A stretch of DNA of 45,291 nt from Planctomycetota bacterium. GTDB lineage: Bacteria; Planctomycetota; Phycisphaerae; SM23-33. The stretch spans positions 1 through 45,291 of the forward strand of contig JAAYCO010000148.1 in assembly GCA_012729725.1 (NCBI GenBank), given 5' to 3'. Below, in pieces: positions 837-12,417 of the stretch; the first letter of the stretch is position 1, and each line of letters starts with the position of its first letter. The position numbers and the translations under genes were made by a program. Under the pieces are notes generated by a model, which did not search any database, had not been told where the DNA came from, and saw only the letters and a program-made list of their open reading frames with translations.

Positions 837-3800
837 CGGTATCGGTATTCGCAGCGGCTCGCGTTGTCGTTCGGCCGGCCTGGTTGCCGGCGCCGTTTGC
901 GGCTGGGTTGCCGGTTGCTGATCGAGGCCTGGCGGCGGCGCGGGCTGGGGTGAAGGCGGGCTTTGTGGTTGAGTTCCTGCCTGGGGCGTAAGCCTTTCCT
1001 GCAACTGACGCCTGATAAGAAGCTCCGTCGCGCGATTGACCAGCGGCCCTATATCCACCGAGGCGGTATCCAGGCGCGGATCGCTTCTTGTGCCAACGAT
1101 GGGTACGCGAACCCGCACCCCCTCCAACACGGTAGCCCAATCATCAACCGGGCCGCGTGCGCCAAGGGTTCGCAGCAGAGATGCGCCCACGGGCAGAGAG
1201 ACTCCCATGTCAACCGTGTCGTCGAACCCCACCGAGCCGTCAAAGAAAACCGACTCTCTGCCGATGTCGATCTGAAACTCCCTGAACGACACCCTGCCGT
1301 CGTTGATGGTGAACAGAACCGAATGAGGCAGCAGCGTCTGCGGACCGGTCAGTTCGAGCAGGCCCAGCAATCCGGTCATCGCGGGGCCGCGAGGCTCGAT
1401 GGTCTGTTGCGAAAGATCCAGTACGCCCCTGCCGCTGCCGTGCTGTTGTATCTCGTCGCTGAGCGGAAGCGACATTTCGCTGAAGGACAATGAAGCGGTG
1501 CCGTCGATGGTCGCCATGTCGTAGAACAAGGGGTTGATCCTGCTAAGGATGGCTCGCGCGGTCTGTGGCGTCACCCGCACTCGCTCCAGCACCACAAGAC
1601 GTTCCGGCCGGACGTACAGCGGCCAGGGGCCTGCAAGATCGACCATGCCTCCAAGCCTAAGCACTCCGCCCGAGGCCGCCACCTCGGTAACCGGCACGGT
1701 CACGACGGCCTGGGCAAGCAACGGAGCAAGCTCAGCGGGACCAAGGTCGACGCCGAACAGCGTTCCGCTGCGCCAGTTGACGGACGTACGCGCTTGGAGC
1801 CCGCGAAACGGCGGGTCCAGCGCCGCGCTGTTGGCCGGGCCCTGGATGCGCAGCGGCCCCTCGCTGTAGCCGGTCATTGCGATGTCCTGGCCGATTTCCG
1901 GCGAAAACTGGCGGATCACCGAAGTCAGCCTGTCCCAGTTCGCGCGGTACTGACCGGAGATGTCCGTCACCATCGCCCCCGACAACTCGTTGATCGAGCC
2001 GGAAGCCTGGCTCGATAATATGTCGGAAGTTAAATTCAACGAATTCAGCACAAGCGAATCGGCTCCCCGGTCGAGCTGGGCGGAGTAGTCGAGCAATATC
2101 CGCGGCTCGGTGAATGCAGTCTCGCCCTCGCCCAGGCGGAAATTCTCCACGACCATTTTGCCCGTAATGGGCATGCGATTTCGCCCGTTGGCGGCTGCGA
2201 ATGCGTGGTTCCAGTTGAACGCGCCGGACATCTCCGGCAGTTCCATTGCGCCAAGCGCCTGCGCCAAGGCGGCGACAGTCGCCAGATTGGACACAACCTC
2301 CACCGTGCCGGCAAGATCCAGATCCGGCGTGCGTTCCACAACAAGGGACTGGACAATGGCGCGCGTGGACGCGCTGTTGACGGTGGCCTGCCGGACTGCC
2401 AGCGCGCCGGGCGACGGCTTATAGCGAAGACCGGTCCACTGCACAACCGTGTCGCCAGGCTCGATTACCGTGCCTTGATGGGCCAGGCCGCGAACCGTCA
2501 TCTGGCCCTCGCTGGTGAACGCGGATTGCGAATCTGGCCGGGCGATGCTTGCCGTTCCAGACAACCCGCCTGCAAGCTGCGAGCGGGTCGACCCTGCCAG
2601 GCCAGATAGAATCGCGTCGGCGTAGGCAATCGACGCGCGTTGAACGTCGATGTCGCCCTGCATTTGGCCCGAGGGCCTGATCAAATGGCCCGTGGCGTTG
2701 ACGATAATCTCCTCGTCCAGGTTGATTGTCGTGCGGGTCACGTCCAGCCGTCGCAGCCGATTGTCCTGGAAGAATATGCTGCCCTGCTGGTCAACCGTGC
2801 CCTGGCCGATTTCGGCGCGGGTGTCGCCAGAGGCATAGACGAAATCGTTGACGTTGGCGTTCAGCACGTAGTCCAGTTGATCTTCCGTCGCCCGCCGCAA
2901 CTGCGCGGTTCCGGCAACGCCGCCGGAAAAGGCCGTGCCGCCAAGATCAAGCAGTTGACCCAACTGCGAGTGCAGGTCCGAAAGGTTGATGCGATAATTC
3001 GCGTCCAGCTCGCGCGGCGTGCCGCTGGCCTCGATGCGCCCCCACTGCGCCTGCGCCAGCAGCCGACCAAGGTCCAGCCCGACGCCGGGCGAAAGCCTGC
3101 CGTCGAACACCAGCGTGATGTCCTGCCACCTGCTCGCCTGGCCATTCTGGCGCAGGACGGCGTTCTGCACGTTCACTTCGCCACTGAACGACGGGCTCCT
3201 GCCGCCGGCAACGTCGAGCTGTTTTATGACCAGCTCACCGCTCTGGAGCGAGGCGTCGTCCCTGAGTTCGAGCAAGCCGGGCACGGCGCGCCACAGGCGG
3301 GCAATGTCTATCCGCCCACTTGCGTTGATGGCTGCGGGCGGCATGGCGACGTCCCTGCCGGTCATCGCCGCCGAGAGCAACCGATCAACAGTAACCGCCG
3401 GGGCTTCGTCACCGGGCGCCCATGACAGATTCGCCCTCACCTGCCCGGCTGCATCCGCCGTCATCTGCGCCTGGATTCGTTGCGAATCCGCGCGGAAATC
3501 GCCGGCAAGTCCCGCGTCTATCGGTTCAACGGCGGCGCCTTGAGCGGGAGCGGAGAACCCCGAAACTGTCATCTCGACATTTCCGTCTCCGACGCCGTTG
3601 TTCATCCGCGCCCGGGCGGAAAGATTCGCAAGACCCGTCATCTCGCCGCCAAATGCATCTGCCAGCGGCGCCACGTCGAGCGCCTCCGGTGTCTGAAGCG
3701 CCAACTGGCCGCTGACCTTGCTCAGGTCGAAGTCGCCTTGCTGGAACAACCCGCGAGCTTCGAAGGTTGCGCTTAGCTCTCCCTGCCCTGCCGCCTTGGC

Positions 3801-8744: not shown

Positions 8745-10155
8745 TATCACAGCCTCTATTGGGGGTCGATCCAAGTTTCATTACGTTTTCCGGCAGCGTC
8801 AGGACGTCGAACATCTCCGACGTCATGAACCCAAGCTCCACCACCGCCTGCTTGACGCTCAGGTTGTTTTGGCCGGCGTGCTTGATCGCTGCTGTCGCCT
8901 TCTCGTAACCGATCTGCTCGACGAGCGATGTCGCCATGGCCGTGCCGTTTTCCACAAGCGACTTGCAGCGAGCCTCGTTCACCTGGATTCCTTCAACACA
9001 CAGGCGGCGAAGAGCGTCGCAAGCGCGCGACAGCATGCCCAGCGAACCAAGCAGACAATCAGCAACCAGGGGAAGGAAGGGGTTGAGTTCCAGAGAGCCC
9101 ATCGAGCAGGCGTGCGAAATTGCCTGATCGTTGGCCATTGTCATCATCGCAGCCTGGCTGACCGCTTCGGGAATCACCGGGTTGACTTTGCCGGGCATCA
9201 GCGATGAACCCGCCTGCCGAGCGGGAAGCGTGATCTCTCCAATGCCGGCACAAGGTCCGCTGGAAAGCAGCCGAAGGTCGCCGCACATCTTCAACAGGTT
9301 GGTCGCCAGGCTTTTGAGGATGGCGTGAACCTCGACAAAGGCGTCGGCATTCTGGGTTGCCTCCACAAGATTTTCCGCCCGCGCCAGTCCCGAGTGCGTG
9401 ATATCCCGCAGGTGCTCGACGGCTCGAAAGATGAACTGCCTTGGAGCGCCAAGGCCGGTTCCCACCGCCGTGCCGCCGAGGTTGACCACCCTGAGCCGCT
9501 CCTGGCACTTGTAGATTCGCCAGCGGTCTCGCGAGATAGCCTCGGCGTACGCGCTGAATTCCCTTCCCAAAGTAAGCAGCACCGCATCCTGCATTTGCGT
9601 CCTGGCCACCTTTACGACGTGGGCGAACTGGCGTTCCTTGGCCTGAAAAGCTTCAAGCAGGGCCACGACGTCGCGTTCGAGAATCTTGAGCAGGCCAAGA
9701 CCCGCCACTCGCAGCGCGGTGGGATAAGTGTCGTTTGTGGACTGGTGAAGGTTGATGTCATCCGTGGGCGAAACGGCAGCGTAGTCGCCATGGGGCCGGT
9801 TCAGAAGCTCCAGGGCCCTGTTGGCGATAACCTCGTTGACGTTCATGTTGGTGCTTGTGCCGGCCCCGCCCTGGAGCGCGTCGACGACGATGTGCTGGTC
9901 GAGCATTCCTTCGGCAAGTTCGGCGCAAGCGCGTTCAATCGCGGCCGATTTCTCGTCGCTCCAGCAACCAAGCTCGCGGTTGGTGCGAGCGCAGGCAAGC
10001 TTCACCGCTCCATAGGCGTGAATCAGCCATGGGTTGATCTTTCTTGCGGCTATGGAGAAGTTCTCCATAGCTCGCATGGAATGAATTCCATATAAAGCTT
10101 GCGATGGAACAGGCATTTCGCCAAGAAGGTCGTGTTCGGTGCGGTATTCGCTCAT
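8737..10155 (-). CDS. aspA: Aspartate ammonia-lyase
   Basis: 472 aa; fumarase/aspartase signature GSSLMPGKVNPV, N-terminal MSEYRTEHDLLGEMPVPSQALYGIHSMRAMENF. 3' end overlaps the hydF start. Confidence 0.95.
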   Translation of the reverse strand: MSEYRTEHDLLGEMPVPSQALYGIHSMRAMENFSIAARKINPWLIHAYGAVKLACARTNRELGCWSDEKSAAIERACAELAEGMLDQHIVVDALQGGAGTSTNMNVNEVIANRALELLNRPHGDYAAVSPTDDINLHQSTNDTYPTALRVAGLGLLKILERDVVALLEAFQAKERQFAHVVKVARTQMQDAVLLTLGREFSAYAEAISRDRWRIYKCQERLRVVNLGGTAVGTGLGAPRQFIFRAVEHLRDITHSGLARAENLVEATQNADAFVEVHAILKSLATNLLKMCGDLRLLSSGPCAGIGEITLPARQAGSSLMPGKVNPVIPEAVSQAAMMTMANDQAISHACSMGSLELNPFLPLVADCLLGSLGMLSRACDALRRLCVEGIQVNEARCKSLVENGTAMATSLVEQIGYEKATAAIKHAGQNNLSVKQAVVELGFMTSEMFDVLTLPENVMKLGSTPNRGCDNG

Positions 10156-10360
10156 TGATTCTCCGGTTTGAGCTTCTAGAGCGTATCAGCACCCCGCCTG
10201 GTCTGCAAGAAGGCCGGCGGATGGTCAGAGCGGGCCTGCCGGCTCAGAGTAAGACCGGGCCAGGCGTGTGCTGGCATGTGCATGAGCAAAGATCGATCTG
10301 GCCCTTGACCGATTGAACGCTCGCCGCATTCCTTATATACGTCCTTGGCCTACGCTGCCG

Positions 10361-10822
10361 GCTCCATTTGGTGTCGCGCGTAAGTGCTTGCGCTATATGC
10401 ACTTGCCAATTTGGTGTCGTTTTTTGCCCACTGACCTTCGCCACAGCCATGATCTTCCGCTATCCGGAAAATGATGCCCAGCCGGCCTAACCTCAGACAA
10501 CACCGTTTGGCGCCCTTGGGTGGCCTGGAAGTCATGCCGCTCCATTTGGTGTCGCGCGTAAACCCTGATCTTAACCGGACTTGCAGATTTGGTGTCGTTT
10601 TTTGCCCGTTGCCGTTCGCCACCTCCCTGATTGGAGCTATCGGGGCGATGATTCCCAGCCAGGTTGACACCAGGCAGCTCCATTTGGTGTCGCGCGTAAA
10701 TCCTGATCTTGCAAAGACTTGCAGATTTGGTGTCGTTTTTTTGCCTCATGGCGTCGGCGTAGCCTTCGTTGCCGGTGGCGGAGGCGCAAATCCCGGCAGC
10801 GACGTCCGCGGGTAACTCCATT
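10361..10822. repeat. Tandem intergenic repeat array: three ~68-nt cores plus a degenerate fourth start
   Basis: Cores at 10361-10428, 10539-10606 and 10677-10745, each GCTCCATTTGGTGTCGCGCGTAA...ATTTGGTGTCGTTTTTTGCC. A degenerate ACTCCATTTT lies at 10815, 138 nt after the third core. Confidence 0.92.
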
Positions 10823-10859
10823 TTGCTTCTCGCGGGGGGTTGTTTGGGGCCAGGGTTAG

Positions 10860-10873
10860 ACCCCGGCCGGGGT
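10860..10873. repeat. 14-bp perfect palindrome ACCCCGGCCGGGGT
   Basis: Read directly: ...gttagACCCCGGCCGGGGTgtgtat... Confidence 0.8.
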
Positions 10874-11130
10874 GTGTATCGGGGGTATTTAGCCAGTTTC
10901 ATCATGCCCCACAGGAACATGCAGATGCGCTGGCAAATGCCGTTCTCTACGCCCTGCCTTTTCTCATCGGCCATGGCATAATCCCTCGGACTCGTGGCTG
11001 GCATTTTACCGCGCCCGCCCGTGGGTGTCCAGCATGTATTTCGATGCTTGTCCCGCAGTCACAACATCTTTCGTTCTTGCGCACACATAACTCATGGCGT
11101 CGAGGCGGCATCATCGATAGAGGGCTTGCG

Positions 11131-11391
11131 TGGAAATGCGCGGACCTGACTCCTCGTCCCGGAGGGACACCTCGCCGTTATCTGATTATTGCGAAGCGAC
11201 CTTATCGAATTGCCATACGCGAAGAGCAAGTGCACCAAATGCCCGCGGAATGCGAACGTAATGAGGGCCAGATGGGCCACGACGCGAAGTGAGACAGCGT
11301 AGTTTCGCTGCGCGATTCGTGGGTGTAATGCGAACACAACAGAAACGGCGATGTGTCGCTCCGCGACCAGAGTCAGGCCCCCTCATTGCCA
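11131..11391. mobile_element. Putative MITE-like or structured intergenic element bounded by long imperfect inverted repeats
   Basis: 11131-11179 (TGGAAATGCGCGGACCTGACTCCTCGTCCCGGAGGGACACCTCGCCGTT) aligns with the reverse complement of 11344-11391 (TGGCAATGAGGGGGCCTGACTCTGGTCGCGGAGCGACACATCGCCGTT), about 38/49 positions by hand. No transposase ORF inside. Confidence 0.55.
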
Positions 11392-11421
11392 TACGGGGCT
11401 TTAGCGTGGTGCTGGTTTTCG

Positions 11422-12417
11422 CTAGTTAGATGTATACGCGGGCAGGAGGAACGAATCGGTTCTGGAGGTGGGCATTTCGTCGCCGCGGTAGTCGAAGACG
11501 CCCTCGGCGAGGAAAATGTTGTTGCCGTCAACCCCGACGTTGGGATTGCTTGCCCAGGCGACGCTGTTATTAAGGCGAAGAACGTTCTGGCCTGTGCCGC
11601 CGTGGTTGTCGCTGGCAAGAGCCGAAACCTTGCTGCGGTCAAAGCATCCGCCTGGAAAAACCGGGCTGCTGTCGGAAAGGATGACCATCTTTTCCTGTTC
11701 GGCCGGGCTGTATCGGCTGCGGCGGATCGGGCCTTCGGGCGTCAATGGATGTTGATATGAATATCCAACGTGCCGCTCCGACGGAAAATCGGTCATGCCC
11801 TCGACGACTGCGAACGATTCGATGCCCCTGGCCGGACATTGAAATACCCTTGGCGAGGCATGTGACGATTGAAGCAGCTTAAACAAGGCCGCCGAGTTGC
11901 TTACGGGCTTTCTGCCGGAAACCTGCATCCACTGCGCGGGGCTTTCCAGGGCAATGGGAAGGTATTCGTCGTTTGAGGCGGCATACGCGCTGACGGCCGA
12001 GCCGATCTGGCCCATGTTGGAGGCGCATTCGCTGATGAGCATTCTTCGGCGGGCCTGGCGAATGGACGGCACGAACAGCGCCGCCAGCAGCAGGACCGCC
12101 GCGGCAATCGTGCCGGCCTCTCGCATGGAAAAAGTCGAAAACGACCAGCGATGCCCTTTCTGCTCGCGGGCAATAAGGGCATTGGTGAGCCGCGTGGAAG
12201 CCACTCTTTGGAGTGTGCGAGACACGAGATCGCTGCTGGGTTCAACTTCAGGAAGCAGCTCCATGGCGCTCAGTGCGTTCTGAACGTCCTGTTTGAGCGA
12301 CCGCAGGTCCGGTTCACCCGCGAGTCTTTCCTCTATTTCGCCGCGCTGACGTGCATCGCAACGGCCCAGTAGGAGGTCTATGATCAAGCCATCGTCGTCA
12401 CTTTGTCTGCTGCTCAT
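11422..12417 (-). CDS. Anti-sigma-like N-terminus + TM + pseudopilin/DUF1559-like C-terminal domain
   Basis: 331 aa; N-terminal ~100 aa anti-sigma-like, TM (AGTIAAAVLLLAALFVPSIRQARRRM), then a pseudopilin-like segment ending SALASDNHGGTGQNVLRLNNSVAW. Overlaps the upstream ECF sigma gene by 20 nt. Confidence 0.7.
   Translation of the reverse strand: MSSRQSDDDGLIIDLLLGRCDARQRGEIEERLAGEPDLRSLKQDVQNALSAMELLPEVEPSSDLVSRTLQRVASTRLTNALIAREQKGHRWSFSTFSMREAGTIAAAVLLLAALFVPSIRQARRRMLISECASNMGQIGSAVSAYAASNDEYLPIALESPAQWMQVSGRKPVSNSAALFKLLQSSHASPRVFQCPARGIESFAVVEGMTDFPSERHVGYSYQHPLTPEGPIRRSRYSPAEQEKMVILSDSSPVFPGGCFDRSKVSALASDNHGGTGQNVLRLNNSVAWASNPNVGVDGNNIFLAEGVFDYRGDEMPTSRTDSFLLPAYTSN

Follow-up and report, generated by a model that had tools for sequence, protein, structure and literature searches.

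Described repeat families and the element in the window

Small dispersed repeats of bacteria are usually palindromic, of the MITE or REP type, and come without a gene-like start of their own. The BOX elements of Streptococcus pneumoniae and S. suis are modular, their larger copies bear open reading frames and some have been shown to be transcribed (PMC3049150). Rickettsia palindromic elements (RPE) are palindromes 105-146 nt long (PMC2229807); in the Correia/NEMIS repeats of Neisseria the inverted-repeat ends can supply a promoter, and RNase III can cut stem-loops in the transcripts (PMC2649163, PMC2229807). REP/BIME sequences, with their RAYT transposases, fall into GTAG/CGTC super-families (PMC3733652).

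The array of paired boxes analysed here lies in a stretch of 45,291 nucleotides (contig C99, hereafter the window) and belongs to a repeat of about 700 bases. From its sequence, this repeat is best read as a new, lineage-specific, modular and transcribed interspersed repeat, and it may work like pneumococcal BOX or Rickettsia RPE without necessarily belonging to either, BOX being compared by description only. Like BOX, it is dispersed and modular, with a variable number of internal modules, predicted RNA hairpins and open frames, and restricted to its host lineage (PMC3049150); here a head is followed by one to three cores, a modular order that may or may not correspond to the boxA-boxB(n)-boxC of BOX. 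It differs from BOX in having no terminal inverted repeat (none of at least 12 nt in 10100-11420), in including its own promoter, Shine-Dalgarno-like site and ATG, and in its repeated module, a two-box hairpin with a fixed 43-nt interval. Like RPE and intragenic MITEs, it is found in intergenic positions as well as in frame within genes, with one strand poor in stops (PMC2229807): cores lie inside reading frames on contigs C75, C29, C224 and C32. The core, however, is 76 nt long, non-palindromic and usually arrayed behind its own promoter, and where an RPE has a long palindrome with terminal inverted repeats, only a 6-bp stem is found inside the core.

Correia/NEMIS repeats are likewise small and dispersed and can carry a promoter and RNA hairpins, but they possess the inverted-repeat end that the present element lacks. 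REP/BIME sequences are also short dispersed repeats, and the host genome has Y1/RAYT-type genes; a REP, in contrast, is an imperfect palindrome of 20-40 nt tagged GTAG/CGTC, compared with a 76-nt core with direct boxes here, and membership in a REP/RAYT system was rejected because neither contig with a Y1 gene (C117 and C127) holds a core. The initial annotation had recognised no named family, and no known Rfam RNA family matched 10000-11200 up to E = 5.

A second, unrelated high-copy repeat, AACGGCGAGGTGTCNCTNCG, is likely a REP family of the host genome and a better REP candidate than the element. It occurs at 167 places in the genome with at most two mismatches (reversed control, 0), one of them about 500 nt before the Y1/RAYT transposase gene on C127. 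Two inverted copies adjoin the element in the window, at 11160-11179 (minus strand) and 11344-11363 (plus strand).

The array and its copies across the genome

Exact matches to the 11-mer ATTTGGTGTCG are found in the window at 10366, 10409, 10544, 10587, 10682 and 10725 and nowhere else, forming three pairs with a spacing of exactly 43 nt. The three cores align in register at offsets of 178 and 138 nt, the other two being 75% and 89% identical to the middle one. The linkers between them are related in sequence and of two lengths, which rules out a CRISPR-like array with unrelated spacers of similar length. These pairs, the core spacing and the related linkers had all been described in the initial annotation, and every one of its coordinates was borne out. 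Its degenerate block at 10815, CTCCATTT, is present as well and is more exactly the remnant half of a further core, since the aligned place in the sister copy on C104 has a full core. The array as first described is real but incomplete: alignment of copies extends the element to about 11090 on the minus strand (Table 1) and reveals it as dispersed.

Table 1 Features of the element, in window coordinates
Feature	Position	Strand	Basis or comment
Whole dispersed element (approximate ends)	10343..11090	-	copy alignment; promoter-side end judged from copies
Predicted promoter TGGACA-17-TAAAAT	11003..11031	-	consensus scan and copy alignment
GAGGGA, Shine-Dalgarno-like, 7 nt before ATG	10982..10987	-	88% pairwise identity
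Frame ATGGCCGATGAGAAAAGGCAGGGC... (MADEKRQG...), 193 codons open through cores 3 and 2	10393..10974	-	translation plausible
Small hairpin in transcript head (ATGTTC-CTGTG-GGGCAT)	10904..10920	-	pairing in nine copies
Remnant half core	10813..10835	-	full core here in C104
Core 3, first in transcript	10672..10747	-	boxes 10725-10735, 10682-10692; hairpin 10698-10720
Core 2	10534..10609	-	boxes 10587-10597, 10544-10554; hairpin 10560-10582
Core 1	10356..10431	-	boxes 10409-10419, 10366-10376; hairpin 10382-10404 (AAGTGC...GCACTT)
Linker 1	10432..10533	-	conserved with linkers of other copies
Linker 2, shorter form	10610..10671	-	linker comparison

Read along the minus strand, the element consists of the promoter, GAGGGA, ATGGCCGATGAGAAAAGGCAGGGC, about 215 variable nt and one to three cores, the number differing among copies; the first core starts 236-240 nt past the ATG in seven of eight copies. 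Copies of about 60-84% identity lie on some ten other contigs, among them C31, C172, C212, C207, C143, C11, C218 (two) and C104, and C16 holds a tail-only copy. Another short motif, TGTATGGYGTCCCCAATGG-like, occurs near both ends of the C11 and C218 copies (L019, L027).

The host genome that was searched comprises 3.2 Mb in 250 contigs. Across it the exact 11-mer occurs 46 times, compared with once for the reversed control, which rules out a chance origin of the array, and the exact 43-nt pair occurs 18 times on ten contigs (reversed control, 0). A genome-wide search with a covariance model of the core, as suggested in the initial annotation, identified 27 cores, all at E <= 1.3e-4; the core on C101 probably represents the C207 locus, the two contig ends having 127 identical bases in common. 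All 27 cores run in the direction of the unit or gene in which they lie, on its sense strand.

Nothing comparable to the element or the core was found in 40 relatives, and at the family level a DNA search returned nothing comparable except one weak 42-nt match. Samples of 397 genomes from the class and 392 from the phylum (about 780 sampled) held no convincing core, a single weak match in the class sample (G087, E = 0.002 over about 400 genomes) being judged a chance hit. Phage, plasmid and IMG/VR viral collections yielded no core. A scan of all GTDB contigs, which may leave out near relatives, matched at least 100 stretches, and no core was recognised in those examined for spacings of 42-44 and 52-54 nt. 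The initial annotation had equated absence from every related genome with a purely local duplication; at present sampling the absence holds literally, yet about a dozen loci of the same genome carry the element, and a purely local duplication is ruled out. In this comparison, which includes no congeneric genome, the element appears to be lineage-specific at the level of the genus.

Start region, core hairpin and reading frame

TGGACA-17-TAAAAT is the only promoter-like site that the consensus scan detected in 10150-11430. Pairwise identity across copies reaches 84% at the -35 box, 90% at the -10 box, 88% at GAGGGA and 89% at ATGGCCGATGAGAAAAGGCAGGGC, and is lower in the surroundings: 55% from the -10 box to GAGGGA, 63% from GAGGGA to the ATG and 66% in the 215-nt middle. 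The small hairpin in the transcript head has 92.6% of its cells paired in nine copies, with a modest covariation score that was reached by 31 of 500 shuffles; a GCAG...CTGC helix, also in the head, shows no covariation. When about 300 nt comprising the head and the first core are folded as a consensus, the result beats column shuffles on both strands, by about -4.4 SD on the minus and -2.7 SD on the plus strand, and is given no weight here. No terminator-like site was found for the unit, which counts against reading it as transcribed.

On the minus strand each core is a 76-nt ungapped unit: a box CGACACCAAAT and four bases precede a 6-bp stem, whose loop is 11 nt long, and ACGCG leads from the stem to the second CGACACCAAAT, the boxes being direct repeats. 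In 23 distinct cores 87% of the stem cells are paired, and three of the six pairs have changed on both sides. Covariation, a check that the initial annotation had proposed, was evident in a stem score of 0.334, which none of 500 shuffles and no slid-register control (at most 0.086) reached, with the reservation that shuffles overstate covariation among related copies. The same stem ranks first in an exhaustive helix scan of the minus strand. Its non-Watson-Crick cells comprise 24 G.U on the minus strand, against none that would be G.U on the plus strand, and 18 others; plus-strand pairing is only 70%. The shortness of the stem (6 bp) and its many wobbles count against an RNA reading; the default consensus fold of the core alignment misses the stem, and the boxes are more conserved than it is. 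Because the stem covaries and its G.U wobbles are confined to the minus strand, the signal points to a minus-strand RNA and not to a site on a DNA face, and the 43-nt interval would arise because a hairpin of fixed size lies between the boxes. That hairpin, with the single orientation of the 27 cores, disfavours the paired binding on one DNA face first proposed. The other original suggestion, a repeated RNA or transposable module, gains support from dispersal, modularity, the covarying hairpin with its one-strand wobbles, and the promoter and start region.

The reading we favour, with a confidence somewhat short of even, is that the array makes up the 3' portion of a modular repeat, dispersed in the genome, which forms a small minus-strand transcription unit whose cores act in the RNA. 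It draws on the dispersal, the conserved promoter and start, the covarying strand-specific hairpin and the sense orientation, each demonstrated at the sequence level. The unit would open with a promoter of the sigma70 type, followed by GAGGGA as a Shine-Dalgarno-like site, the ATGGCCGAYGAGAAAAGGCAGGGC start block and a variable middle, and close with one to three cores, each with two copies of CGACACCAAAU at the fixed 43 nt and a hairpin between them. Transcription of the unit would be accompanied by translation of at least its beginning, where initiation is plausible; in the RNA, the cores would offer a trans-acting factor paired sites for recognition or processing, the likeliest candidates being an RNA-binding protein and a ribonuclease. 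The unit would have spread in the lineage as a non-autonomous element, for which no mobility enzyme was identified, and single cores would have become fixed, on the sense strand, in genes of an uncharacterised protein family. A repeat family with a promoter, a Shine-Dalgarno-like site, a start block and two-box RNA modules in tandem, and with that module recurring within genes, would, if transcribed, be well suited to studying how mobile RNA modules turn into regulatory sites; the covariance model of the core can be used to find the module in related bacteria.

A simple MITE- or REP-like repeat, mobile but non-autonomous and of no function to the host, is possible, though unlikely; its promoter and frame would be by-products, and its conserved blocks would reflect the needs of the transposition machinery. 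Such a repeat would fit the dispersed copies beside unrelated genes, the variable number of modules and the restriction to one genome among those searched; the two Y1/RAYT-type transposase genes of the genome would suit it too, but their contigs are without cores and 10100-11420 is without a terminal inverted repeat of at least 12 nt. Moreover, the hairpin wobbles favour an RNA of one strand, and conservation is concentrated at the promoter, Shine-Dalgarno-like site, ATG and boxes, not at the ends.

In nine diverged copies the frame that starts at the ATG stays open over 139-193 codons (P 0.000-0.028 for each copy in dinucleotide shuffles), and seven of the nine have indels whose lengths are multiples of three. 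The cores contain 21 stop trinucleotides on the transcript strand, where about 51 would be expected and the opposite strand has 49. Together with the conserved promoter, Shine-Dalgarno-like site and ATG, the open copies and their indels would fit a multicopy family of minus-strand protein genes (MADEKRQG...) that contain internal repeats and whose product evolves fast or diversifies. We consider such a family quite improbable, since substitutions are spread across all codon positions, dN/dS among copies is 0.57-1.46, around 0.85, different copies read their cores in different frames and the MADEKRQG... product has no match in Pfam, PHROG or NCBIfam. A conserved protein is, despite the open frame, unsupported by this substitution pattern and dN/dS. 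Column-level stop avoidance is marginal (P = 0.04), the C218b copy is frameshifted, and the tail-only C16 copy has an early stop. Structure prediction for P0002 from one sequence was uninformative (mean pLDDT 38.7).

Cores within genes and genes beside the copies

Three paralogous genes, on C75, C29 and C224 (frames of 566 codons, 544 codons and partial, respectively), contain cores in frame on their coding strand. These cores are weaker (33-39 bits) and keep the boxes with the 43-nt interval, the stem being lost, a point against the favoured reading. In the three genes box 1 shows no change in any of 14 synonymous comparisons, compared with 73% unchanged elsewhere in them, a difference in favour of that reading that is suggestive over these few sites. 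The genes (L044:277-1977 on C75, L045:1574-3208 on C29 and L043:1128-1646 on C224) belong to a multicopy family of about 550 aa, the P0001 family, with fragments on C8, C54, C63 and C167 and, elsewhere, only weak distant matches in two of 298 class genomes. Its product has no match in Pfam, PHROG, NCBIfam or PDB; the C-terminal half presumably resembles plasmid and phage helix-turn-helix proteins of the KorB/ParB type. Two diverged cores with added perfect palindromes, CGACACCAATTGGTGTCG, are located in the 3' part of a small ORF on C32 (L048 ~2950-3275; C32:19.95-20.28 kb), with a GlnRS-like gene about 125 nt downstream, and this palindrome-bearing form is possibly an older version of the module.

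As a rather long shot, transcripts of the favoured RNA unit might act as decoys, their tandem two-box hairpins titrating an RNA-binding factor whose other targets are P0001-family mRNAs with the same motif; a lineage-specific RNA regulatory network would then have been built from a mobile repeat.

Highly unlikely, in our view, is an array of DNA-level sites whose paired boxes are bound by a protein, for example of the P0001 family, that autoregulates its own gene and organises the chromosome. The boxes are indeed the most conserved part, and intervals of 40-44 nt, about four helical turns, recur, whereas core-to-core distances are unphased (neighbouring boxes are 135 and 95 nt apart), the wobble pairs are strand-specific and the cores keep one orientation relative to transcription. 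The palindromes on C32 and the boxes contained in P0001-family genes would agree with such sites; the helix-turn-helix, however, is a tentative resemblance, with no Pfam, NCBIfam or PDB match to the family.

The gene downstream of the element is co-directional at C99, C31, C32, C11, C143 and C218 and convergent at C104, C172 and C16, across gaps of about 125 to 372 nt. It encodes an aspartase/fumarase-type lyase (Lyase_1) at C99 and is carB-like at C31 and GlnRS-like at C32; the others are unrelated and, judged by eye from their sequences, include an M50 protease, a HAD hydrolase and an HTH protein. Comparison of flanking genes, also suggested in the initial annotation, reveals neighbours that differ in function and orientation, which argues against a dedicated leader. 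A leader or riboswitch controlling the next gene (the aspartase here, carB and GlnRS at other copies) would suit those three co-directional genes and is scarcely credible given the unrelated and convergent ones, the gap lengths and the Rfam result.

Beyond the 3' end of the element in the window, the 110 nt before the array (10235-10342) align with the corresponding flank of the C143 copy at 82% identity, the window copy lacking about 80 nt; judged from this similarity, the unit may formerly have reached further in the 3' direction.
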